Positions 35,735 through 45,239 of a stretch of 64,000 bases of DNA are shown one piece after another. The stretch's first letter is position 1, and the number at the start of each line of letters is the position of its first letter. The position numbers and the translations under genes are program-made. Source of the DNA: Alphaproteobacteria bacterium (GTDB lineage Bacteria > Pseudomonadota > Alphaproteobacteria > Caulobacterales > Parvularculaceae); NCBI GenBank assembly GCA_016125425.1, contig WGLT01000020.1, positions 1 to 64,000 on the forward strand, given 5' to 3'. The notes under the pieces are model-generated. The model was not told the DNA's origin. It did not search any database and saw only the letters and a list, made by a program, of their open reading frames with translations.

Positions 35735-36223
35735 CTACCGATAAGGCGCGTCGAGTTCGAGGTTCTGCGCGATCTCGCGCTCCCAGCGGTCGCCATTCGC
35801 GAGCAGGCGATCCTTGTCGTAGAAAAGTTCTTCGCGCGTCTCCGTCGCGAATTCGAAATTCGGGCCCTCGACGATCGCATCAACCGGGCACGCTTCCTGA
35901 CAGAAGCCGCAATAGATGCATTTCGTCATGTCGATGTCGTAGCGCGTCGTGCGGCGCGAACCGTCCGCGCGGGGTTCGGCTTCAATCGTGATCGCCTGCG
36001 CCGGGCAGATCGCCTCGCAAAGTTTGCAGGCGATGCAGCGCTCCTCGCCGTTCGGATAGCGACGCAGCGCATGTTCGCCGCGGAACCGCGGAGAGAGCGG
36101 TCCCTTTTCAAACGGATAGTTCACGGTCGCCTTCGGCCGGACATAATATTTGAGCGCGAGCCAGAAGGCACCGAGAAAATCGGTCAGAAGAAAGCCGCGA
36201 ACGGCCTGAGCGAGGCGCGCCAT
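35735..36223 (-). CDS. nuoI: NADH-quinone oxidoreductase subunit I
   Basis: A 162-residue iron-sulfur subunit of complex I carrying two [4Fe-4S] clusters, N6a and N6b, bound by [12 protein letters not shown] and [12 protein letters not shown]. It starts directly at the nuoH stop and is co-translated with it. It converges with the inserted methyltransferase gene, 57 bases away. Confidence 0.96.
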
Positions 36224-37294
36224 TTAGGGCCTCCAGCTTTGAAGATGCGCGGCGAGATCGGGGAACGCAACGAGCACGCCCGCGACCAGCACGACCCAGA
36301 ACAGCGAGAGCGGCAGGAAGATCTTCCAGCCGATGCGCATCAACTGGTCATAGCGATAGCGCGGCACGATCGCCTTCACCATGGCAAACAGGAAGAAGAA
36401 GAATACGACCTTCAACCCGAACCACAGAATCGGAACCGCGTTCAGGACCGGCAGATCGATCGGCGAATACCAGCCGCCGAAGAACAGGATCGTCATCATC
36501 GAGCACATCAGCACGATGTTGAGATATTCCCCGATCATGAAGAGAAGATAGGGCGTCGAGGAATATTCGACCTGATAGCCGGCGACGAGTTCGGATTCGG
36601 CTTCCGGCAGGTCGAAAGGCGGCCGGTTCGTCTCTGCGAGCGCCGAGATGAAGAAGACGACGAACATCGGGAACAGCGGAATGAAGTTCCAGTTGAGAAG
36701 GCCGAGCCCGCGGTTCTGGCTGTTGACGATATCCGAGAGGTTCACCGAGCCGACAAGCAAGATCACTGAAATGATCACGAAGCCGATCGAGACTTCGTAG
36801 GAGACCATCTGCGCGGCCGAGCGCAGCGAGCCGAGGAACGGATATTTCGAGTTCGACGCCCAGCCGCCCATGATGATGCCGTAAACGCCGAGCGAGGAGA
36901 TCGCGAAGAGATAAAGAATGCCGACATTGATATCGGCGATGACAAGACCGGGTCCGACGGGGATCACCGCCCAGGCCGCAAAGGCGAGGACGAAAGAGAT
37001 CAAGGGCGCAAGCAGAAAAATCGTCCGGTCGGCGCCCGCCGGAATGACGATCTCCTTGAAGACGAATTTGAAGAAGTCGGCGAAGGACTGGAGAAGACCG
37101 AACGGGCCGACGACATTCGGGCCCTTGCGCATCTGCACCGCCGCCCAAACCTTGCGGTCGAAGAGCAGGATGAAAGCGAGCGCCACCAGAAGCACGACCA
37201 TCAGCGCCAGCGTCTGCAGCGCCGTCGGGATCAGCCAGCCAAGCCAGCCGGCGTCGGTCGGCCGTGTCGAAAGATAAGTCCAGATATTCTCCAT
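36224..37294 (-). CDS. nuoH: NADH-quinone oxidoreductase subunit H
   Basis: A 356-residue membrane subunit that joins the hydrophilic and membrane arms of complex I and forms part of the quinone cavity. Typical segments are [30 protein letters not shown] and [20 protein letters not shown]. The length is normal. nuoG, its usual upstream neighbour, is 5.8 kb away, beyond unrelated genes. Confidence 0.96.
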
Positions 37295-37373
37295 GGGGCG
37301 CCCTCTTAGTGCGGAACGCGGCGATCGTCACGGGGGGCGACCTGCAAAAAACCGCGCGCCCCGAGAAGGAGGA

Positions 37374-37407
37374 CGCCCGCCCCTTTTGAGGCGGGCGCCC
37401 CGTTTTT
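37374..37407. terminator. hairpin between small Cys peptide gene and nuoH
   Basis: CGCCCGCC (37374-37381) and GGCGGGCG (37390-37397) form an eight-base stem. Five T follow on the plus strand (37403-37407). On the minus strand, the direction of the genes on both sides, no immediate T-run follows, so it may only partly stop transcription into nuoH. Confidence 0.6.
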
Positions 37408-37428
37408 GTTCAGACTAGCGCCTCCGCC

Positions 37429-37578
37429 CTAGGGGCAGAGGGGGCAGCCCGGGCAGCACGCCGCGATAAACGCGCAGCAAGCTGCGACAGCATGTCCGAC
37501 CGTCTCGGGCGCGGCCGCATAAGCGCCCGTCGCCCCAAGGCCGAGAAGGACGACCGTCATCGCAAGAATGCGACTCAT
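37429..37578 (-). CDS. small exported cysteine-rich peptide (49 aa)
   Basis: A 49-codon gene starting at 37578 with GGAG seven bases upstream. It has a basic start, a hydrophobic signal-like segment (ILAMTVVLLGLGATGAYA) with an AYA-A cleavage site, and a mature tail of roughly 28 residues holding six cysteines in AACCAFIAACCPGCPLCP. I do not recognise it. Such a peptide could bind a metal ion or form disulfides in the periplasm. It lies 34 bases behind another small exported Cys-containing protein and is probably co-transcribed with it. Confidence 0.65.
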   Translation of the reverse strand: MSRILAMTVVLLGLGATGAYAAAPETVGHAVAACCAFIAACCPGCPLCP

Positions 37579-37612
37579 ATCCGTACTCCTTTGTTGTCAA
37601 TTGAACGTGACT

Positions 37613-37936
37613 TTAAAGGAGACGAACGCGCGGCGGGGGAACCGGCGGCCCGATCGCAAGTCCTTCGCGTTCGAACGCGGCGATCGCGTAGACGACTTTC
37701 GTAGAATCGATCGGTGCGGAAACCGGCGCCGGCGCGACCGGGATCGCCATGCAGTAATAGAGGCATTGGGCGAGTGAGCAGACCGGCGAGGGCGGCGCCC
37801 CGTCATCGACGAAATGCGCGTTCGCGGCGGCGGTCATATCGCAGGGCGGAGCCAATGCGTGCGGCAGCACGCCGGCCGGCGCGACGCTCAGAACAGCGAC
37901 GGCCAGGAGACCGAAAAAGAATCCCGCCCTGTTCAT
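37613..37936 (-). CDS. small exported protein, unknown, Cys-containing
   Basis: A 107-residue protein with a clear signal peptide (MNRAGFFFGLLAVAVLSVAP), four cysteines (PCDM and CSLAQCLYYC) and a proline-rich, arginine C-terminus (PPVPPPRVRLL). It resembles the small secreted Cys/Met proteins that accompany metal-efflux genes, but no efflux gene is adjacent and this is only a resemblance. It is first of a two-gene unit with the 49-residue Cys peptide, within the block inserted between nuoG and nuoH. Confidence 0.65.
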   Translation of the reverse strand: MNRAGFFFGLLAVAVLSVAPAGVLPHALAPPCDMTAAANAHFVDDGAPPSPVCSLAQCLYYCMAIPVAPAPVSAPIDSTKVVYAIAAFEREGLAIGPPVPPPRVRLL

Positions 37937-38020
37937 ATCGCCAGTTTAAGCCGCATTCTCCTGCGGGGCAATGCGCGCCCCGAGGCCTTGACGGAGCGAG
38001 GACGCGCCCGTCGATATTGA

Positions 38021-38055
38021 GAAAAGGGGCCGCGCGCTTTCCCGCACGCGGCCCC
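38021..38055 (-). terminator. intrinsic terminator of the GIN-domain gene
   Basis: On the minus strand GGGGCCGCG (38055-38047) pairs with CGCGGCCCC (38034-38026) and four T follow (38025-38022). It lies about 50 bases after the stop of the GIN-domain gene. Confidence 0.75.
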
Positions 38056-38105
38056 CGTCTTTGGAAAACCCGGCGCCCCTCGCGAACGGGCGCGTCCTTG
38101 TCCGG

Positions 38106-38819
38106 CTATTCGACGCGGATCTTCGAAAACAGGCCGCCCGACTTTTCAACTTGAGCGGGCGAGCCGGAAACGCGGATCTCGCCCATGCCGTTGACGCTGG
38201 CCTTGACCGCCTCGCTCGCATAGACCGAGGCCTTGCCGACGCCGGACACTTCGACATCGACATTCTTGCATTTGAGGTCTTCAGCGTTGAGTTCGCCGAC
38301 GCCCGAGACATCCGCCTTGAGGCGCCCGCACGTTCCGTCGATCTCCATATGGCCGACGCCGGAAATGTCGGAAGAGAAACTGTCGGACGCGACGCCTTTG
38401 ATCTCACCGTCGACGACGCCGGAAATGTCGACCGCGGAAAGAGCGGGCACGGTGATGGTCGCCGTCAGGCTCCGATGATTGCGCCAGTGCGTTTCATGCT
38501 GGCGTTCGTCAAGGCGCAGTTCGCCGTTTGATACGCTGACTTCGACGCGATCCATTTGCGTCTGCGGGCCCGAAATTTCGATCGCGTAGTCGCCGCCGAC
38601 ATTCACATGCAGTTCGTAAACCCCTGCGACGTCGATCTTGTCGAAATCCTTCAGATCGTATGTCTTGGAAATGTCGGCGCTCTTGTCGCGGTCGCCGATG
38701 TGAAAGTCGCCGATCTTCGCCGCGGCGTCTCCGATATTGCCGACGGCGAGCGCCATCGCTCCAAGCCCCACCAAAAGCGCAACGACAATGCCCACGATCA
38801 ACCCGAGAAAAAACTTCAT
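38106..38819 (-). CDS. GIN domain (DUF2807) putative auto-transporter adhesin-like protein
   Basis: A 237-residue protein with an N-terminal signal or anchor helix (MKFFLGLIVGIVVALLVGL) and a beta-helical head-GIN domain (DUF2807). The repeating SGVG phrases (DISGVGHMEI, DVSGVGELNA, EVSGVGKASV) are the hallmark. The family is secreted or surface-bound with no firm function. GGGAGGGG stands before the ATG at 38819. It is flanked by terminators on both sides, so it forms its own transcript. Confidence 0.85.
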   Translation of the reverse strand: MKFFLGLIVGIVVALLVGLGAMALAVGNIGDAAAKIGDFHIGDRDKSADISKTYDLKDFDKIDVAGVYELHVNVGGDYAIEISGPQTQMDRVEVSVSNGELRLDERQHETHWRNHRSLTATITVPALSAVDISGVVDGEIKGVASDSFSSDISGVGHMEIDGTCGRLKADVSGVGELNAEDLKCKNVDVEVSGVGKASVYASEAVKASVNGMGEIRVSGSPAQVEKSGGLFSKIRVE

Positions 38820-38936
38820 CGTCGCCCCTCCCTTCAAAAGGCCGTCGCAAACTAGCACTCGCCGAGCCATGGCCCAACGCCCTTTGTCGCAAATCGAGGG
38901 CGGGTCGGCGCGTCTCGAACTGTTTCGCGCCGATTG

Positions 38937-38956
38937 AAAAAGGGCGGGCTCCGCCC
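38937..38956 (-). terminator. intrinsic terminator of the flavinylation operon
   Basis: On the minus strand GGGCGG-AGC-CCGCCC forms a six-base GC stem, followed at once by five T. It lies about 100 bases after the stop of the four-helix membrane protein gene and separates this operon from the GIN-domain gene. Confidence 0.85.
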
Positions 38957-39057
38957 CCCGCCGGCGGCCGCGTCCGGCCGGCGGCCCGCGCGCCGGCGCG
39001 GCTCTCTCCGTCTGCGGAAAAACTCCGGGCCGCGTCCCGACGCAAAACCGCGCCCTG

Positions 39058-39522
39058 TCAGCGACGCCGCCGCTCCGGGCGGCGCTTTCGGGCCGCGACG
39101 TGCCGCCACACGATCGCCGCGGCGAAAACGCCGAATCCCTGATGGGCGAGGCTCGCCATATCATGCAGCTCCCGGTTCGGCGCGTAATAGAGCAAAAGCG
39201 CCGAGACGATGAGAAGCGCCGCAAGCGCGAGCCCGGCGATCCCCGACCACGGCTTTTTCTTTCGCCGAAGGCCCGCCGGAATGTGGCGGGCGAGCAGCGT
39301 GCCGAAAAGGATCGCCGCGCCATAGGCGATAACGCCATGTCCGATCAGAACCGCGTGCATGACAGAGCGAAGCGCAGGTCCGTCGATCTGCGGCGACAAA
39401 ACGCCCGCATAATGCGCGAGCATCCACACGCCGCCCGTGAGCGCGAGGAGAACGCCCGTCGCCTTGAGGGCGCGCCGATGCGCCGCCCCGATACGGGCGC
39501 CATTTTCCGGAGGGGCGCTCAT
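39058..39522 (-). CDS. four-helix membrane protein with conserved histidines, possible b-type cytochrome (DUF4405-like)
   Basis: A 154-residue protein with four hydrophobic helices (about 18-40, 52-80, 92-114, 122-146). Histidines fall within or at the ends of the helices (MLAHYAG, VMHAVLIGHG, ELHDMASLAHQGFG), which suits bis-His haem ligation as in small membrane cytochromes b. The ATG at 39522 overlaps the apbE stop (ATGA), and GAGGGC precedes it. As last gene of a flavinylation operon it could move electrons from the quinone pool through the membrane to the flavinylated periplasmic protein. The haem and this direction are inferred. Confidence 0.7.
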   Translation of the reverse strand: MSAPPENGARIGAAHRRALKATGVLLALTGGVWMLAHYAGVLSPQIDGPALRSVMHAVLIGHGVIAYGAAILFGTLLARHIPAGLRRKKKPWSGIAGLALAALLIVSALLLYYAPNRELHDMASLAHQGFGVFAAAIVWRHVAARKRRPERRRR

Positions 39523-40304
39523 TTCGCCCTCCGCATCAGGATCGGCTTCGCATTCCAGCGCGCCAGAACCGGGGCGTTCGGATCGCGCGCGGCGACTTTC
39601 GTCATCGCGTCGGCGACCGCGGCCGACGGCGCGACGACGGCGACGGCGCCCGGCCAGTCCCGGCGCCCTTCGCGATCCCACAATTCTGAGACGCCGCCAT
39701 AGGCGCCCGAGCTCGCGACGCCGCCGCGCGCGAGCGCAATTTCTTTCGCCATGCGCCCCGGACACGCGGGGTCGCGCAATCCCACCCGTTCCGTCGCACG
39801 GCAGGAAAGCGCAAGGTCGCCGCCGGCGTCGACAATCGCGTCAGCCGCGCCGCCCTCCGACAAGATCGCACACAGACGTTCTGCGGCGAATCCCTTGGCG
39901 ACGCCGTCCAGCGAAACGCGGAGCGCGCGGCGCACGGATATTCCGCCATCCGCTTCAAGAACGACATCGCGCCAGGTCGCGCCGCGCGCGTGCGAGTCCG
40001 GCATGACGGGATCGAATGCGCCGTCGCTGTCCTCGGCGATATCGAGGGCGAGGCGCAGAACTTCGCGCGTTTGAACGCGCACCATGGCGCGCTCGCCCGG
40101 CCGCAGGCGGGCGATCGCCGCCACATCGCTCGTTTCTTCTTGCCGGCTCATCGCCGCATGAAAGCGCGCCGCCAGATCGAAAGCGCGGCGCATGGCGCGG
40201 TCCGCCGCCTCGCACGGCGCGCCGCGCGCGGTCAGAACAAGGCGCGTTCCGAAGCAGGGCCGCGCGCGGCGCCTGACCGGCGTTTCAGCGTCCGAGAACG
40301 ACAT
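39519..40304 (-). CDS. apbE: FAD:protein FMN transferase
   Basis: A 261-residue ApbE-family enzyme that attaches FMN from FAD to a Ser/Thr of target proteins in the periplasm. Visible motifs are LDGVAKGFAAERL, the DAGGDL loop and the metal/FAD residues in AVADAMTK. No signal peptide is obvious at the chosen ATG (40304), which is unusual for an exported ApbE, so a different start or cytoplasmic action should be considered. It overlaps the FMN-binding gene by 20 bases and the membrane protein gene by four, a tight pairing of modifying enzyme and target. Confidence 0.88.
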   Translation of the reverse strand: MSFSDAETPVRRRARPCFGTRLVLTARGAPCEAADRAMRRAFDLAARFHAAMSRQEETSDVAAIARLRPGERAMVRVQTREVLRLALDIAEDSDGAFDPVMPDSHARGATWRDVVLEADGGISVRRALRVSLDGVAKGFAAERLCAILSEGGAADAIVDAGGDLALSCRATERVGLRDPACPGRMAKEIALARGGVASSGAYGGVSELWDREGRRDWPGAVAVVAPSAAVADAMTKVAARDPNAPVLARWNAKPILMRRAK

Positions 40305-40821
40305 GGGTCGCCAGAAGACGGCGCACGCCGTCCGTCACATTGCGGCAGGAAAGAGTGGCGCCGGAAATATTCTCGATGTCCTTGCCGAGTTTGACGGGAT
40401 CGTCCGGCGACTTGCCCCGGAATTGCGCGCGCCACGCCAGATCGCGAATTTCGAATCCCCAGGTTTCGCGGTATTCGATTATCTCGACGCCAACAACCTT
40501 GTCGGCGCCGGAGATTCCGGCGGCGTAGGTGATATATTCGTGTTTTCCGATGACGGCGTCCACATAGACAAAGCCCGCCGCCTGCCCGTCGCGGCGCGCC
40601 TCGAATCCGGAAATTCGCGAATTTCTGACTCGCGTGCCGCTGCGTCGCTTGATCTCCTGCGTTTGCGCCTTGTTCAGATCCACGCTGAACGGAACAATTT
40701 CGTTCGCATCCGGAAATATGAGGCGCGCAGCCTCCTCCGGCTCGACATAGCGCTCGGCGCGCGCCGCAAACGGAAACAGCGCGGCGCCGAGAAGAAACAG
40801 AAGCCTTCGCCGGTCAAACAT
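40285..40821 (-). CDS. exported FMN-binding domain protein (ApbE target)
   Basis: A 178-residue protein with a signal peptide (MFDRRRLLFLLGAALFPFAARA) and an FMN-binding domain containing the flavinylation motif SGAT (ISGATLSC near residue 161), whose threonine is the expected covalent FMN site. The start at 40821 overlaps the outer-membrane gene's stop (TGATG). Together with ApbE it indicates a flavin-based one-electron carrier in the periplasm. A twin-Arg-like DRRRLLF start is noted but is not a full Tat motif. Confidence 0.88.
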   Translation of the reverse strand: MFDRRRLLFLLGAALFPFAARAERYVEPEEAARLIFPDANEIVPFSVDLNKAQTQEIKRRSGTRVRNSRISGFEARRDGQAAGFVYVDAVIGKHEYITYAAGISGADKVVGVEIIEYRETWGFEIRDLAWRAQFRGKSPDDPVKLGKDIENISGATLSCRNVTDGVRRLLATHVVLGR

Positions 40822-41720
40822 CAGAAATTCAATCCCACTTTGAGCCGAGCCTCCTGTTTCGTCTTCTCGACGAGATGGAGGCGGTCTGTCTGTCCCGGAT
40901 AAGCCTCCTCGCCGCCGCCGCGCGCCTGGGGAAACCAGGTCAGCGTCGCCCACCACTTCTTCGCGGCGTAATGCAGGCTCGGTCCGACGAAGATCGACCA
41001 GCGCTCCTGGCCGATTTCAGTTTCGAATTCCGTCTGGAAGACGCCTTCGGCGCCGAGAAACCAGCCCGGCGCGAAACGGTAGGAAAATCCGGCGCCGGCG
41101 GTGACTTCAATCTCCATCTCGGGATCAGTCGGCCAGTCGAAGCCCGCCGGCAGACTGGCGATCGGCGCGCGATCCGCATAGGTCGCCTCCAGCGCCGCAT
41201 TGGCGGCGGCGATCAGCTGGCCCTCGAGGAAATATTTCTGAAGTTGAAGCCCGACTTCGGTCGAAAACGTGTTCTTGTCGCGGCCCGAATGCGGATCGAG
41301 CCAAGCGTAATCGAAACTGAACGTCATAGACAGGCCGACCGGCGCGACGGCGGGCTTCACGAAATTATATTTCGCCTCGGCTTCGATCCCTGACGGCTTG
41401 AGGACATAATGCTCCGGACCCGGCAGATAGCCGTCGATGACGAGGCCTTCGGTGTCGATCGAGAGCGTCTTGAGAGCGAAGGAGGCGTTGAACCGGTCGG
41501 TGACGCCGTATTCGATCTCGGTCGTCGTATCGACGGCGTTGTAGGTCCCGGCGCCCTTGCCGCCCCGCCAGGTCGCGATCTGGTAAAATTCCCAGCCGCC
41601 CTGAGGGATCGTCTCGACCCCGCGCACATAGCCGAACACCTGCTCGTCCGCGCTCGCCGCCGCCGGCGAAAACGCCGCTGCGGCAGCCGCCGCAAAGGCC
41701 GAATACGCCTTCAATGTCAT
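40821..41720 (-). CDS. outer-membrane beta-barrel protein (porin/transporter-like)
   Basis: A 299-residue protein with a signal peptide ending near ASADE and alternating hydrophobic/polar strands with frequent aromatic residues, ending in the outer-membrane type terminus VGLNF. Family resemblance is to transporter-like barrels of unknown substrate (DUF6662-like). It is the first gene of the flavinylation operon, with GGAGG before the ATG and a promoter with a Fur-like operator upstream. An iron-related function, such as passage of ferric complexes to a flavin reductase, is inferred from operator and neighbours. Confidence 0.78.
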   Translation of the reverse strand: MTLKAYSAFAAAAAAAFSPAAASADEQVFGYVRGVETIPQGGWEFYQIATWRGGKGAGTYNAVDTTTEIEYGVTDRFNASFALKTLSIDTEGLVIDGYLPGPEHYVLKPSGIEAEAKYNFVKPAVAPVGLSMTFSFDYAWLDPHSGRDKNTFSTEVGLQLQKYFLEGQLIAAANAALEATYADRAPIASLPAGFDWPTDPEMEIEVTAGAGFSYRFAPGWFLGAEGVFQTEFETEIGQERWSIFVGPSLHYAAKKWWATLTWFPQARGGGEEAYPGQTDRLHLVEKTKQEARLKVGLNF

Positions 41721-41731
41721 GCCCGCCTCCT

Positions 41732-41775
41732 TGCGATTAATTTTCAGTCGCAGTTAATATTGCGACTCATTCGCA
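41732..41775 (-). promoter_or_regulatory. paired inverted repeats, Fur/iron-type operator
   Basis: TGCGAATGAGTCGCA (minus strand, 41761-41775) is a TGCGA-N5-TCGCA inverted repeat resembling alphaproteobacterial Fur/Mur boxes. A second repeat TGCGA-N11-TCGCA lies directly downstream (41732-41752). The first sits exactly between -35 and -10 of the operon promoter and the second covers the likely transcription start, an arrangement expected for repression. Confidence 0.6.
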
Positions 41776-41782
41776 TTTGCAA
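41754..41782 (-). promoter_or_regulatory. sigma-70-like promoter of the flavinylation operon
   Basis: On the minus strand TTGCAA (41777-41782) and TATTAA (41754-41759) are 17 bases apart, each matching four of six consensus positions. Only about 35 bases separate the -10 box from the start codon, and the stretch is AT-rich against its surroundings. Confidence 0.55.
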
Positions 41783-41828
41783 GTGGTGGATTCGGCGGCC
41801 CCACGGACGGCCTTTCGACGGGAGGACG

Positions 41829-42350
41829 CTAACGGAGGCTGTAGAGCGCGGGCGCGGTTTCGGCCCGCTCGGCGGCGCGCCAGAGGGGCCGCATGCGGCG
41901 GCCGAACAGGACGGCCGCCGCCACTCCCGGCAGGAAAATCATCCACCGCCCGTTCGCCAGCAAATCATCGAAGGTCAACGCTCCGCCCGCGGCGATCAGC
42001 GCTGTGACGCATTCGATGAAGAAAGCGGCGACGACATAGGGCCAGGTCTTGCGCAGCTTCGCGCGCTCAAGCGCGAGAAAGAGCGGCAGGCCGGCGACGA
42101 CCGCGGCGAAGAAGCCGACGAGGAAAGACATGCAGGCGAAAGCGAATGCTCCGTAAGCGGCGGAAAAAAGCCCGCCGAGACTCCAGCCATGCAGGGCGTG
42201 GGAGACGAGACCTGCGAAAAGCTTCAGCGCGCCGCAGGCGACAGAAGCCGTCAACACCGCCACGAGCATATGCTCGAAGGCGATATTGGCGCGCACCTGC
42301 GAGAACACCTGTTCGGCGTTCGGGCCGGTTATGATCGGTCGTTCGCTCAC
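41829..42350 (-). CDS. hypothetical four-helix membrane protein
   Basis: A 173-residue protein starting with GTG inside the DUF1579 gene's stop codon (GTGA). Four hydrophobic segments (about 27-48, 62-90, 103-125, 134-150) predict an inner-membrane protein. I recognise no family motif. Coupling to the DUF1579 gene is the only functional clue. Confidence 0.7.
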   Translation of the reverse strand: MSERPIITGPNAEQVFSQVRANIAFEHMLVAVLTASVACGALKLFAGLVSHALHGWSLGGLFSAAYGAFAFACMSFLVGFFAAVVAGLPLFLALERAKLRKTWPYVVAAFFIECVTALIAAGGALTFDDLLANGRWMIFLPGVAAAVLFGRRMRPLWRAAERAETAPALYSLR

Positions 42351-42805
42351 GCCTTAGAGTAACTGCCTTCCATCATCGTCTTCCAGGACTTGCCGTCCTC
42401 CGACATCTCCATCCTGAACATATAGGCGCCGGAGCTGGAGAAGTCATAGGTCGCGCGCGAATGCTGGCCGCCTGGATTGACCGAGGTGAAGACCCATTTA
42501 TCGCCGTCGGCCACGCCTTCGAAAACCGACGGCCAGAACATGTCGAACCAGTACATCTGATAATTGTCGGCGGCTGGATTCTTCATCAGGACGGCATGAC
42601 CGGGATAGACGACCTTGCCTTTGTCGAGTTGCGCATAGTCCTGAACCACCGCGAATCCGCCGAGCGCCAGCTTGTTCGAAATTTTCGCGTCGCGCGCGCC
42701 GCCGTCCGGCAGCCAGGGGCTCGGCGACATTTTCTCGTTCCCGCGCCACTCGCCGACAAAGATTTTCAGCTTCTCTTGTGCGGGACCTGGTTTCGGCATG
42801 TCCAT
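42347..42805 (-). CDS. DUF1579 family protein
   Basis: A 152-residue protein of the DUF1579/THAP4-like beta-barrel type, recognised by FVGEWRGNEKM near the start, GGFAVVQDY, and the aromatic-rich strands YWFDMFWP. No signal peptide. The ATG at 42805 has GGGAGAG upstream. Related barrels bind haem or small ligands, but no function is assigned here. A second protein with the same type of fold lies at 45460. Confidence 0.78.
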   Translation of the reverse strand: MDMPKPGPAQEKLKIFVGEWRGNEKMSPSPWLPDGGARDAKISNKLALGGFAVVQDYAQLDKGKVVYPGHAVLMKNPAADNYQMYWFDMFWPSVFEGVADGDKWVFTSVNPGGQHSRATYDFSSSGAYMFRMEMSEDGKSWKTMMEGSYSKA

Positions 42806-42937
42806 GAGAGTCTCTCCCTTGGCCTAAAGGCCGTAAGAGGAGAATAGCAGATGCGTAAGTCCACAGCATGAGCGCATTCATGCTCGCGCCAGCGCCGCGG
42901 GCGATTAATCAGCATCGTCCTAAAACGCCCATCTTAG

Positions 42938-43038
42938 TCATTCCGGGGCCGCGCGTCAGCGCGGAACCCGGAATCCAGCGCCGCCGAGCCCGCCAGTTCC
43001 GGATTCGGGGTTCGCTCCTTAGGAGCGCCCCGGAATGA
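42938..43038. repeat. palindromic intergenic repeat element (~100 bp)
   Basis: The ends TCATTCCGGGG and CCCCGGAATGA are perfect inverted 11-mers, and the inside contains further palindromic pieces such as GCGCGTCAGCGC and TCCTTAGGA. This resembles the interspersed palindromic elements common in Hyphomicrobiales genomes. It lies in a 331-base gap that otherwise holds only the hairpin at 43102; no gene is seen there. Confidence 0.7.
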
Positions 43039-43101
43039 CATGGCTCTCTCTATGACCTTTCTTTCTACTGCGCCTAATCGCCGACGCTCTAACGCCGATC
43101 G

Positions 43102-43119
43102 TCCCCGCAAAAACGGGGA
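43102..43119. repeat. short hairpin TCCCCG-N6-CGGGGA after nuoG
   Basis: A six-base perfect inverted repeat 18-35 bases after the nuoG stop. The loop holds five A on the plus strand but no T-run follows, so it is at most a weak terminator. The sequence resembles a second short interspersed palindrome next to the larger element. Confidence 0.55.
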
Positions 43120-43136
43120 TGACCGAAGCGCGCCGC

Positions 43137-45239
43137 CTACTCCGCCGCCATTTTTGTCGCGCCGGACATCGCGGCCGAGCATTCGGCCATGGTCTTCGAA
43201 GCGCGGGCGATCGCATTGGTGAAATAGAAGTCCTTAACGGCTGAGCGGAAGGGGGCAGTCCCGAGCGGGCCCTGTTCGCCGACCTTCGAAAGATCGAGCG
43301 CAGGCGCCTCCGGCCCCTTGTCGATACGGCCGAGGACGGGCGCATCGGCGATCATCGCCCGCCTCAAGGCGAAAAGATCGTCATAGGGCAGCGTCTTGCC
43401 GACGCGCTCCGACAGCGCGCGGATGATCGCCCAGTCCTCCCGCGCCTCGCCGAAGGGGAAATAGGCGCGGCGCGCCATCTGCGCGCGGCCTTCGGTGTTC
43501 ACGAAAATCGCATTCTGCTCGGTGTAGGCCGCGCCGGGCAGAATGACGTCAGCCGCGTGCGCGCCGGCGTCGCCGTGATGGCCCTGATAGACGACAAACG
43601 CGCCGTCCCATTTCTCGACGGAAATTTCATCCGCCCCAAGATTATAAACGACGTCGATTTCGCGCTTCTGGCAGCTGTCGAGAATGCCGGCGAAATCGCG
43701 CCCGCCCTCTCCGGGCAGAAATTTGAGGTCGAGCGCGCCGACGCGGCCCGCCGCCAGATGGAGCACGTTAAAGCCGTTCCAGCCTTCCTTCACCGCGCCC
43801 GCGGCTTGCGCGAGTTTCGCGGCGGCGGCGAGCACGGCCGCCCCGTCGGGCCGCGCGAGCGCGCCCATGCCGATGATGATCGCCGGACGTTCGGCCGCTT
43901 TCAGCGTTTCGAAGAATTCGCCCTTGCCCGCAGCAAGTTCGGCGAGCGTCTGCGGCCCCTCGCCCAGATGCTCGTAAGCATAGGTCAGATCTCGCGTCTC
44001 GCCGATGAGACCGATCTTGAGATCAAGATTGGCGAGCCACGCCTTGCGGATGCGCGCATTGACGAGCGGGGCCTCATGGCGCGGATTCGTCCCGATCAGG
44101 AGGATCGCGTCCGCCCGCTCAAGCCCTGCGATGCCCGTGTTGAAGAGGTAGCTTTCGCGCGGCCCAGCGCCAATCGGAGCGCCGTCCTGACGGCAATCCG
44201 TATGCGGCGAGCCTATCGCCCTCATCAAATCCTTCAGCGCCTTGACGGCTTCGGTCGGAACGAGGTCCCCGACCACCGCCGCGATCCTGTCGGACGGCGC
44301 GGCGTTGAGCTTGGAGGCGACGAGCGACAGCGCTTCGTCCCACCGCGCCGGCCTTAGCCTGCCGTTTTCGCGGATATAAGGCTTGTCGAGCCGCTGGCGG
44401 CGCAGCCCGTCCCAGACAAATCGGGTCTTGTCCGAGATCCACTCCTCATTCACGTCTTCATGCAGGCGCGGGAGAATGCGCAGGACCTCGCGTCCTCGCA
44501 CATCGACGCGGATATTCGATCCCACGGCGTCCATCGCGTCGATGGTTTCAGTCTTTGTCAGCTCCCACGGCCGCGCTTCGAAGGCGTAAGGCCGCGATGT
44601 CAGCGCCCCGACCGGGCAGATATCGATCAGATTGCCGGTGAGTTCGCTCTCGATCGTCTTTTCGAGATAGGTGGTGATCTCGGCGTCCTCGCCGCGATTG
44701 ACGAGGCCGAGGTCGTCGACGCCCGCAATCTCCGTCGCAAAGCGCACGCAGCGCGTGCATTGAATGCAGCGGGTCATGATCGTCTTGATCAAAGGACCCA
44801 TATATTTGTTTTCGACGGCGCGCTTGTTTTCGGCATAGCGCGACCCGTCGCGGCCATAGGCCATCGCCTGATCTTGGAGATCGCACTCCCCGCCCTGATC
44901 GCAAATCGGACAATCAAGCGGATGGTTGATGAGCAGGAACTCCATCACCCCTTCGCGCGCCTTCTTCACCATGGGCGTATTGGTGAAGAGCTCCGGCGGT
45001 TCGCCGTTCGGGCCGGGGCGAAGATCGCGGACATTCTGCGCGCAGGAGGCGACGGGCTTCGGAGGACCGCCCTTCACTTCGATCAGGCACATGCGACAAT
45101 TCCCGGCGACCGATAGACGCTCGTGATAGCAAAAACGCGGAATCTCCTCGCCGGCGGCCTCGCAGGCCTGCAGCAGGGTGAGATTCGTCGCGACTTCGAC
45201 GTCGCGGCCATTGACCTTGATGATGCGGGTGTCGGACAT
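43137..45239 (-). CDS. nuoG: NADH-quinone oxidoreductase subunit G
   Basis: The 700-residue, iron-sulfur-rich subunit of the NADH arm of complex I. The N-terminal ferredoxin part has [16 protein letters not shown], then [12 protein letters not shown] and [14 protein letters not shown] for further clusters, followed by a molybdopterin-oxidoreductase-like domain without cofactor. Length is normal. It is separated from nuoF (not seen) and from nuoH (5.8 kb away), and a terminator-like hairpin stands just before it. The adjacent gene upstream is on the other strand. Confidence 0.96.

Follow-up and report, generated by a model that had tools for sequence, protein, structure and literature searches.

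What process is served by the four overlapping genes on the minus strand (41782-38938) of the 64,000-nucleotide window analysed here, positions 1 to 64,000 of contig WGLT01000020.1 (assembly GCA_016125425.1) from an alphaproteobacterium of the family Parvularculaceae? The genes encode, in this order, an outer-membrane barrel of family DUF6662, an exported flavin mononucleotide (FMN)-binding protein of the FMN_bind family, the flavin transferase ApbE and a four-helix membrane protein; successive genes overlap by 1, 20 and 4 nt, and all four reading frames are intact (Table 1). An earlier note on this DNA had described them as a self-contained, iron-box-controlled flavinylation cassette made of a barrel, an exported FMN-binding protein with an SGAT motif, ApbE and a His-rich four-helix membrane protein. 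Coordinates, overlaps and Pfam matches confirmed this gene set: the barrel was supported as a predicted 12-strand structure with a signal peptide, the exported protein by its signal peptide and its motif, ApbE by a match over the family cut-off, and the membrane protein by four predicted helices and four conserved histidines. At a rough probability of 0.55, we read the cassette as a single conserved unit under Fur control, which would transfer electrons outside the cytosol and so serve iron assimilation.

We searched genome samples with the DUF6662 profile; the samples of relatives, class and phylum overlap. Matches were found in 2/61 relatives, 5/385 genomes of the class and 11/398 of the phylum, and in 0/14 control genomes. 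At 15 of the 16 DUF6662 loci from these samples, the barrel, FMN_bind, ApbE and four-helix genes followed one another in that order; the exception was a lone barrel in a genome whose full cassette lies at another place. Named genomes were scanned with the FMN-protein alignment, and the best 80 of 561 relatives were used; the exact order was present at 65/80 loci, and four further loci carried two FMN genes (2) or two barrel frames (2), making 69/80 in all. Since these 80 were chosen by the FMN protein, they are uninformative on how often DUF6662 occurs alone. Recurrence of the order elsewhere, which the earlier note had suggested looking for, was thus found in both sets. Three of the 80 loci were interrupted at contig ends (L049, L077 and L110; L077 has FeoB, and no barrel, before the FMN gene) and eight deviated: the barrel was absent from L048, L095 and L107, L058 had it on the opposite strand with no four-helix match, L097 was without barrel and four-helix gene, and L056, L078 and L085 were rearranged or incomplete. 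Two loci, L091 and L111, bear two FMN_bind genes in tandem, which suggests a two-flavin relay.

The four genes also diverged together. Across 75 loci (ten loci were excluded), the protein distances of the four genes correlate with r of 0.41-0.77, and the barrel-FMN correlation of 0.68 compares with a maximum of 0.17 in 300 permutations. One locus, L066, is the same record as G043 and was excluded from the box, neighbour-clustering, signal-peptide, histidine, identity and distance counts; it is still within the 65/80. Judged by their record titles, the named loci span Alpha-, Beta- and Gammaproteobacteria, Bdellovibrionales, Verrucomicrobia, Omnitrophota, a Syntrophobacter metagenome-assembled genome (MAG) and a Chlamydiae MAG; many of the hosts are MAGs, yet one Verrucomicrobium strain is included. 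The copy on a Sphingomonas plasmid is annotated as DUF6662 family protein, FMN-binding protein, FAD:protein FMN transferase and hypothetical protein. Judged by gene order and divergence, the cassette is a conserved unit.

The window's own genome (2.87 Mb, 31 contigs) holds a second complete cassette, with identical gene order, on contig C10. Its operator, TGCGAATTAGTCGCA (G000:C10:157574-157588), is 14/15 identical to that of the window, with one base different. The two barrels share only 28% identity and each is closer to a foreign one (60% between the window barrel and that of an Omnitrophota MAG, 59% between the C10 barrel and that of another genome of the same class); by these identities, the cassettes are therefore old paralogues or separate arrivals. 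No DUF6662 match was found in the 36 other sampled genomes of the window's family; the C10 copy itself scored only 26.7 bits, so that C10-type copies could escape the profile. The interpretation given in the earlier note held in part: at the level of sequence there is support for the iron box, for export of the SGAT protein, for a membrane cytochrome that probably carries two haems and for a barrel predicted to have 12 strands, whereas "self-contained" is doubtful, as the second cassette has its own ApbE and the window ApbE is divergent. Function of the window ApbE may rely on the C10 enzyme.

The earlier note had placed a Fur-like repeat exactly between -35 and -10. The palindrome does lie within the spacer; the hexamers are weak, and a promoter scan at a threshold of 9-of-12 did not report the TTGCAA/TATTAA pair. 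The palindrome itself exceeds chance. With at most one mismatch, the pattern TGCGAATNATTCGCA occurs at 3 places in the whole genome, 2 of them upstream of its two cassettes; with at most two mismatches it occurs at 12 places, versus 6 for the reversed control pattern. Among the matches, C10:157524 is a second site within the C10 cassette promoter, C14:31619 has no open reading frame (ORF) of at least 100 amino acids (aa) over it, and C1:117727 and seven more were rejected as apparent chance matches, covered by ORFs of at least 100 aa. The "good terminator" with which the cassette was said to close was not borne out: 38800-42000 contains 5 terminator-like sites versus 4.0 (standard deviation 2.6) in shuffles, and folding of 38930-39060 has a z-score of -0.89, leaving a terminator after the cassette plausible only.

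We then scored upstream regions with a degenerate Fur box, TGNNAATNATTNNCA plus two further pairing positions (maximum 12). Boxes of at least 10/12 were found in 26/85 regions versus 1.5 expected from shuffles, and boxes of at least 11/12 in 13/85 versus 0.2; of these 13, four come from one genus and two are the window genome's own copies, and the genomes are not independent. Five loci from four genomes of one genus (L033, L035, L036, L037 and L038) have boxes of 10-12 of 12. The lone DUF6662 gene of L036 (genome G774, which also holds a full cassette) carries the Fur-like box TGAGAATCATTCTTA. The window genome encodes Fur, and it encodes FeoB (490 bits) away from the cassette. Among the 94 loci with flanks, neighbours comprised FeoB (5), ferritin-like (7), Fur-family (3), ExbB and ExbD (3) and TonB-receptor (2) genes, with one representative per kind, ExbB excepted, checked in Pfam; clustering added ExbB/ExbD at L115 and the TonB receptor at L050, neither of which direct comparison had found. 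These results support the iron box at the level of sequence and show that it recurs in front of related cassettes from other classes and phyla. Its assignment to Fur is putative, based on general Fur-box knowledge and on the neighbours.

The FMN protein of the window matches FMN_bind (PF04205) at 41.3 bits, over the cut-off, and G154, A155 and T156 are invariant in 75/75 FMN proteins. The apbE gene thus adjoins a substrate gene with [S/T]GA[S/T], the arrangement by which ApbE-dependent flavinylated electron-transfer systems are recognised. A Sec-like signal (hydrophobic stretch plus AxA), called by a simple rule and not by SignalP, is present in the window protein and in 82/83 FMN proteins scored, 13 FMN frames without a start motif being excluded. 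Twin arginine was seen by this rule in only 4 of the proteins scored, the window's included; one excluded frame, L103, also shows it. The subfamily signature D-x-V-x-G-K-H-[ED] (window residues 88-95) is nearly invariant in the 75 loci and was not seen in aligned RnfG sequences; that its GKH[ED] part might form a metal site next to the flavin is an idea only. The window ApbE matches PF02424 at 79.8 bits (cut-off 25.6) and is divergent, with a best match of 39.6% identity and a gap of about 10 residues. D-A-[LM]-x-K is present in 82/91 cassette ApbEs; canonical ApbEs have Thr at the last place of that motif.

The membrane protein has four predicted helices (mean model confidence, pLDDT, 86.9). 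Four histidines are invariant in 81/81 membrane proteins, and H62, H80, H127 and H141 in 15/15, a set that overlaps the first. Helix 2 carries H62 and H80, and helix 4 carries H127 and H141. Given positively charged residues at the two termini and in the loop joining helices 2 and 3, helices 2 and 4 would run parallel; the four histidines could then hold a pair of haems, one towards either face, and the protein is probably a di-haem cytochrome b. Among 15 members, at E up to 0.1, cytochrome b561 (PF01292) matches 6 (best 8.1e-6) and DUF4405 (PF14358) matches 3 (best 6.6e-4). The histidines of transmembrane helices TM3-TM4 align with DUF4405 (hhalign P 1.2e-4, probability only 54%) and with a cytochrome b set (P 2.9e-4, probability only 40%). 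A fold search with the model gave nothing at E 0.001 or better, and a PDB sequence search with the membrane-protein profile gave 0 matches at E 1; a second fold ranking mixed designed haem bundles, hydrogenase cytochrome b and unrelated bundles, and therefore carries little weight. DUF4405 had 0 matches in the window's own genome.

The window barrel matches DUF6662 (PF20367) at 330.6 bits against a cut-off of 27, and its model (pLDDT 84.9) resembles FapF (Z 23.7) and a COG4313 channel (Z 22.7) in fold; a PDB sequence search with the barrel profile gave 0 matches at E 1. E26, E68, R215, E225, H250 and others are nearly invariant in the barrels of the 75 loci. The window barrel has no [ST]GA[ST] motif, and only 2/88 other barrels have one. 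Directly before the FMN gene of several cassettes without DUF6662 stand homologous long proteins, most with a coiled-coil-like start, namely in L095, L097, L107, L078 and the Ideonella, Bradyrhizobium and Methylocystis heyeri plasmid copies. In a Pfam scan of five such coiled-coil porins, two Novosphingobium relatives matched Porin_O_P, and those of L095, L097 and L075 matched no family; in other loci a protein of this type adjoins a full cassette. Because a coiled-coil porin family occupies the slot where DUF6662 is absent, an outer-membrane channel seems to belong to the system, though not one of a particular family. In the M. heyeri plasmid locus (L215), which has the long porin-like protein in the barrel slot, multicopper oxidase and ferritin-like genes lie downstream.

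Taken as a unit for iron assimilation, the cassette would work as follows. Upon iron shortage, Fur would leave the operator. The four-helix protein, whose N and C termini are predicted inside by positive charges, would bind two b haems, one near each face, take electrons from quinol and pass them to FMN, linked by ApbE as an ester to Thr156 in the periplasmic protein. Ferric iron or small ferric complexes, crossing the outer membrane via the 12-strand barrel, or via the coiled-coil porin in barrel-less variants, would then be reduced by the flavin, and the ferrous iron would be imported by the FeoB encoded elsewhere in the genome.

Several observations weigh against this reading. Of the upstream regions, 59/85 score below 10, although some cassettes closely follow another gene; in the window's genome, 0/16 TonB-receptor upstream regions reach 10 (best 9), so that the box gains no backing as a Fur site from any other iron gene there. 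The counts of iron neighbours are small and partly derive from related lineages. The window membrane protein passes no Pfam family cut-off, cytochromes included (best match Acyl_transf_3, E 1.4e-4, 21.5 bits versus a cut-off of 31), this copy itself matches neither PF01292 nor DUF4405, and its fold match of Z 12.7 is below the tool's safe level for helical bundles. Entry of ferric complexes through the barrel is a guess, because the solved uptake channel closest to it in fold is both narrow and closed by a plug, and was considered a route for hydrophobic molecules (PMC4493636).

The remaining difficulties lie with ApbE. By a loose pattern, a His like that of the Vibrio triad is present in only 21/79 ApbEs (13 others were excluded) and not in the window's, whose segment has the Ser and Asp of the triad at aligned places. 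Many ApbEs without a pattern-matched His carry one a few places on, and L045, L104 and L108, scored His-less, had their segments shortened by rule; in the Vibrio enzyme, according to the accessible text of PMC12052999, loss of the triad His reduces activity without abolishing it. Furthermore, 84/86 cassette ApbEs have no hydrophobic stretch before the first conserved motif, while their substrate is exported. Six frames without a PxLGT-type motif were excluded from this count, the window's own, leaderless by eye, among them; of the two ApbEs flagged with a leader, that of L115 has its hydrophobic stretch wholly ahead of the likely start. The same text, a 2025 review, describes ApbEs as typically periplasmic and notes that cytosolic ones exist; the bacterial case it gives acts for a fumarate reductase that is soluble (PMC12052999). 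The flavin would therefore be attached before export, or ApbE would leave the cytosol by another route. That leaderless ApbEs are unique to the cassette was not supported: 7 DUF2271 loci over the cut-off include 5 with an ApbE frame, of which that of L170 seems leaderless, that of L173 has a signal peptide and three run long; two loci showed none.

It is possible, though unlikely, that the same quinol-cytochrome-covalent flavin chain serves something other than iron uptake, with an oxidised protein, a peroxide, a hydrophobic compound or a quinone via the barrel as acceptor and with Fur control as part of an iron-sparing programme. The fold of the barrel is closest to FapF and COG4313, a family implicated in the uptake of hydrophobic molecules, no iron gene of those sought turned up within a few kb of most of the 94 loci, and the Ideonella plasmid copy lies downstream of a cytochrome c peroxidase gene. 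What speaks for iron instead is that the iron neighbours are of several kinds and from several lineages, that Fur-like boxes recur, and that a comparable PepSY-DUF2271-ApbE cluster is Fur-repressed in Caulobacter and Shewanella, as far as the available parts of two sources go (PMC8238504; PMC3751524).

At 69/80 named loci (best 80 of 561, duplicated and split cases included), the gene before the FMN gene encodes an outer-membrane barrel, a homologous coiled-coil porin takes the slot in several DUF6662-less cassettes, and by record title the hosts include genera known for iron or sulfur oxidation, such as Sideroxydans, Thiobacillus and Sulfuriferula. All this speaks for a flavin conduit across the outer membrane, in which the FMN protein would dock at the barrel's periplasmic opening and send electrons outward, like a porin-cytochrome with flavin replacing haem. 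We regard such a conduit as improbable: no cofactor is predicted in the barrel, the bore of a 12-strand barrel is too narrow to contain the FMN domain, and many hosts are what we take to be ordinary aerobes. Likewise improbable is a flavin counterpart of porin-cytochrome conduits in several phyla, in which quinol would feed the four-helix di-haem cytochrome and this the covalent-FMN protein docked on the barrel, with ApbE attaching FMN in the cytosol before Sec-type export; cytosolic attachment contrasts with the periplasmic flavinylation treated as typical in the review literature. Finally, the window ApbE, with its gap and without the catalytic His, and the missing DUF6662 matches in the family, where C10-type copies were possibly overlooked, could indicate unrelated neighbours or a set in decay, without a common function. 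This is very improbable in view of the fixed order across phyla, the correlated divergence, the overlapping genes and the intact window frames; chance assembly as such is ruled out by the recurring order and the correlated divergence.

In the stretch 35735-45239 of the window, the cassette sits within the complex I gene cluster, flanked by nuoG (43137-45239) and nuoH (36224-37294); between these two it is accompanied by a DUF1579 gene and a DUF2807 gene. In genomes of the order's other families, nuoG lies within 1.5 kb directly upstream of nuoH in 5/5 checked; this was the case in 0/8 other genomes of the window's family, 3 of which have DUF2807-type genes upstream of nuoH. From this comparison, the position of the cassette is a variable insertion site inside the nuo cluster. 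The adjoining ORFs 41829-42350 and 37613-37936 gave no Pfam match at E 0.01.

Table 1 Features of the cassette and its promoter (positions in the window).
Feature	Positions	Strand	Basis
-35-like hexamer TTGCAA, 4/6 to sigma-70 consensus	41777-41782	-	Sequence
Fur-like operator TGCGAATGAGTCGCA, 15-bp palindrome inside 17-nt spacer	41761-41775	-	Sequence, genome pattern search
-10-like hexamer TATTAA, 4/6 to sigma-70 consensus	41754-41759	-	Sequence
Further half-site, inverted repeat with 41761-41767	41746-41752	unassigned (.)	
DUF6662 outer-membrane barrel, 299 aa	41720-40821	-	Pfam match, signal peptide, 12 predicted strands
Exported FMN_bind protein, 178 aa	40821-40285	-	Pfam match, signal peptide
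SGAT flavinylation motif, FMN-protein residues 153-156	40354-40365	-	Sequence
ApbE flavin transferase, 261 aa, no signal peptide, short and divergent	40304-39519	-	Pfam match
Four-helix membrane protein, 154 aa, probable di-haem cytochrome b	39522-39058	-	H62, H80, H127, H141 invariant
Possible intrinsic terminator	38938-38962	-	6-bp stem + CTTTTT; not above chance

Flavinylation-associated electron transfer as a kind is already known, on the available text of PMC8238504 and PMC11334425; new in the cassette, judged by its genes, are a different substrate, a different membrane protein and an outer-membrane channel. The clusters of PepSY-like, DUF2271, DUF4198 and ApbE proteins resemble it in having an inner-membrane electron carrier, an exported ApbE substrate, ApbE and regulation by iron or Fur; in the parts available, PMC8238504 reports Fur repression of the PepSY-DUF2271-ApbE cluster in Caulobacter and Shewanella, the iron-study table of PMC3751524 gives large fold changes for CC_3059-3063 of Caulobacter, and a role in iron reduction and assimilation is proposed (PMC8238504; PMC3751524). 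The cassette differs by its FMN_bind substrate, its four-helix protein and a dedicated non-TonB barrel. None of its four proteins has a PepSY or DUF2271 match in Pfam, and DUF2271 has no match in the window's own genome.

Other systems share single elements. The DUF4405/FezC cytochromes associated with flavinylation and ferrosomes are, like the probable cytochrome of the cassette, small membrane proteins beside apbE with invariant histidines (accessible text of PMC11334425), with weak profile similarity to the cassette protein over TM3-TM4. That text describes DUF4405 as six-helix, whereas the cassette protein has four helices and four histidines in one chain and is below the DUF4405 cut-off; the same portion mentions no barrel, and the cassette has one (PMC11334425). 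The DUF3570/DsbD/DUF4266/ApbE clusters are flavinylation clusters with a substrate other than DUF2271; DUF3570 itself bears SGA motifs, as far as the available part of PMC8238504 goes, whereas in the cassette a separate FMN_bind protein bears the site. RnfG and NqrC share the FMN_bind family and the threonine site (RnfG at E 1.5e-9 in PDB sequences), but the cassette FMN protein is predicted to be soluble and periplasmic and has GKH[ED] (residues 92-95), and the cassette has no Rnf or Nqr genes. The FeoP porin of feoPABC in Acidithiobacillus is comparable as an outer-membrane porin of non-TonB type that is linked to the uptake of iron and has a predicted Fur box; it is an OprB-type porin, stands with feoABC and, in the available part of the source, is described without a flavin protein, which the cassette has (PMC2631029).

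The earlier note could not name this four-gene form. We likewise found no description or system name for it in the literature searched, which was mostly without subscription papers and did not include the supplementary tables of PMC8238504, where such loci may be listed; "DUF6662" was absent from the same literature, most subscription papers lying outside the search. The cassette exposes a puzzle, the flavin loading of an exported protein by an ApbE without a signal peptide. If the iron-assimilation reading is true, DUF6662, a Pfam family of unknown function, would gain a function, and flavinylation systems would gain a cytochrome class and an outer-membrane partner. Many environmental bacteria would then have a non-siderophore route from ferric iron to FeoB.

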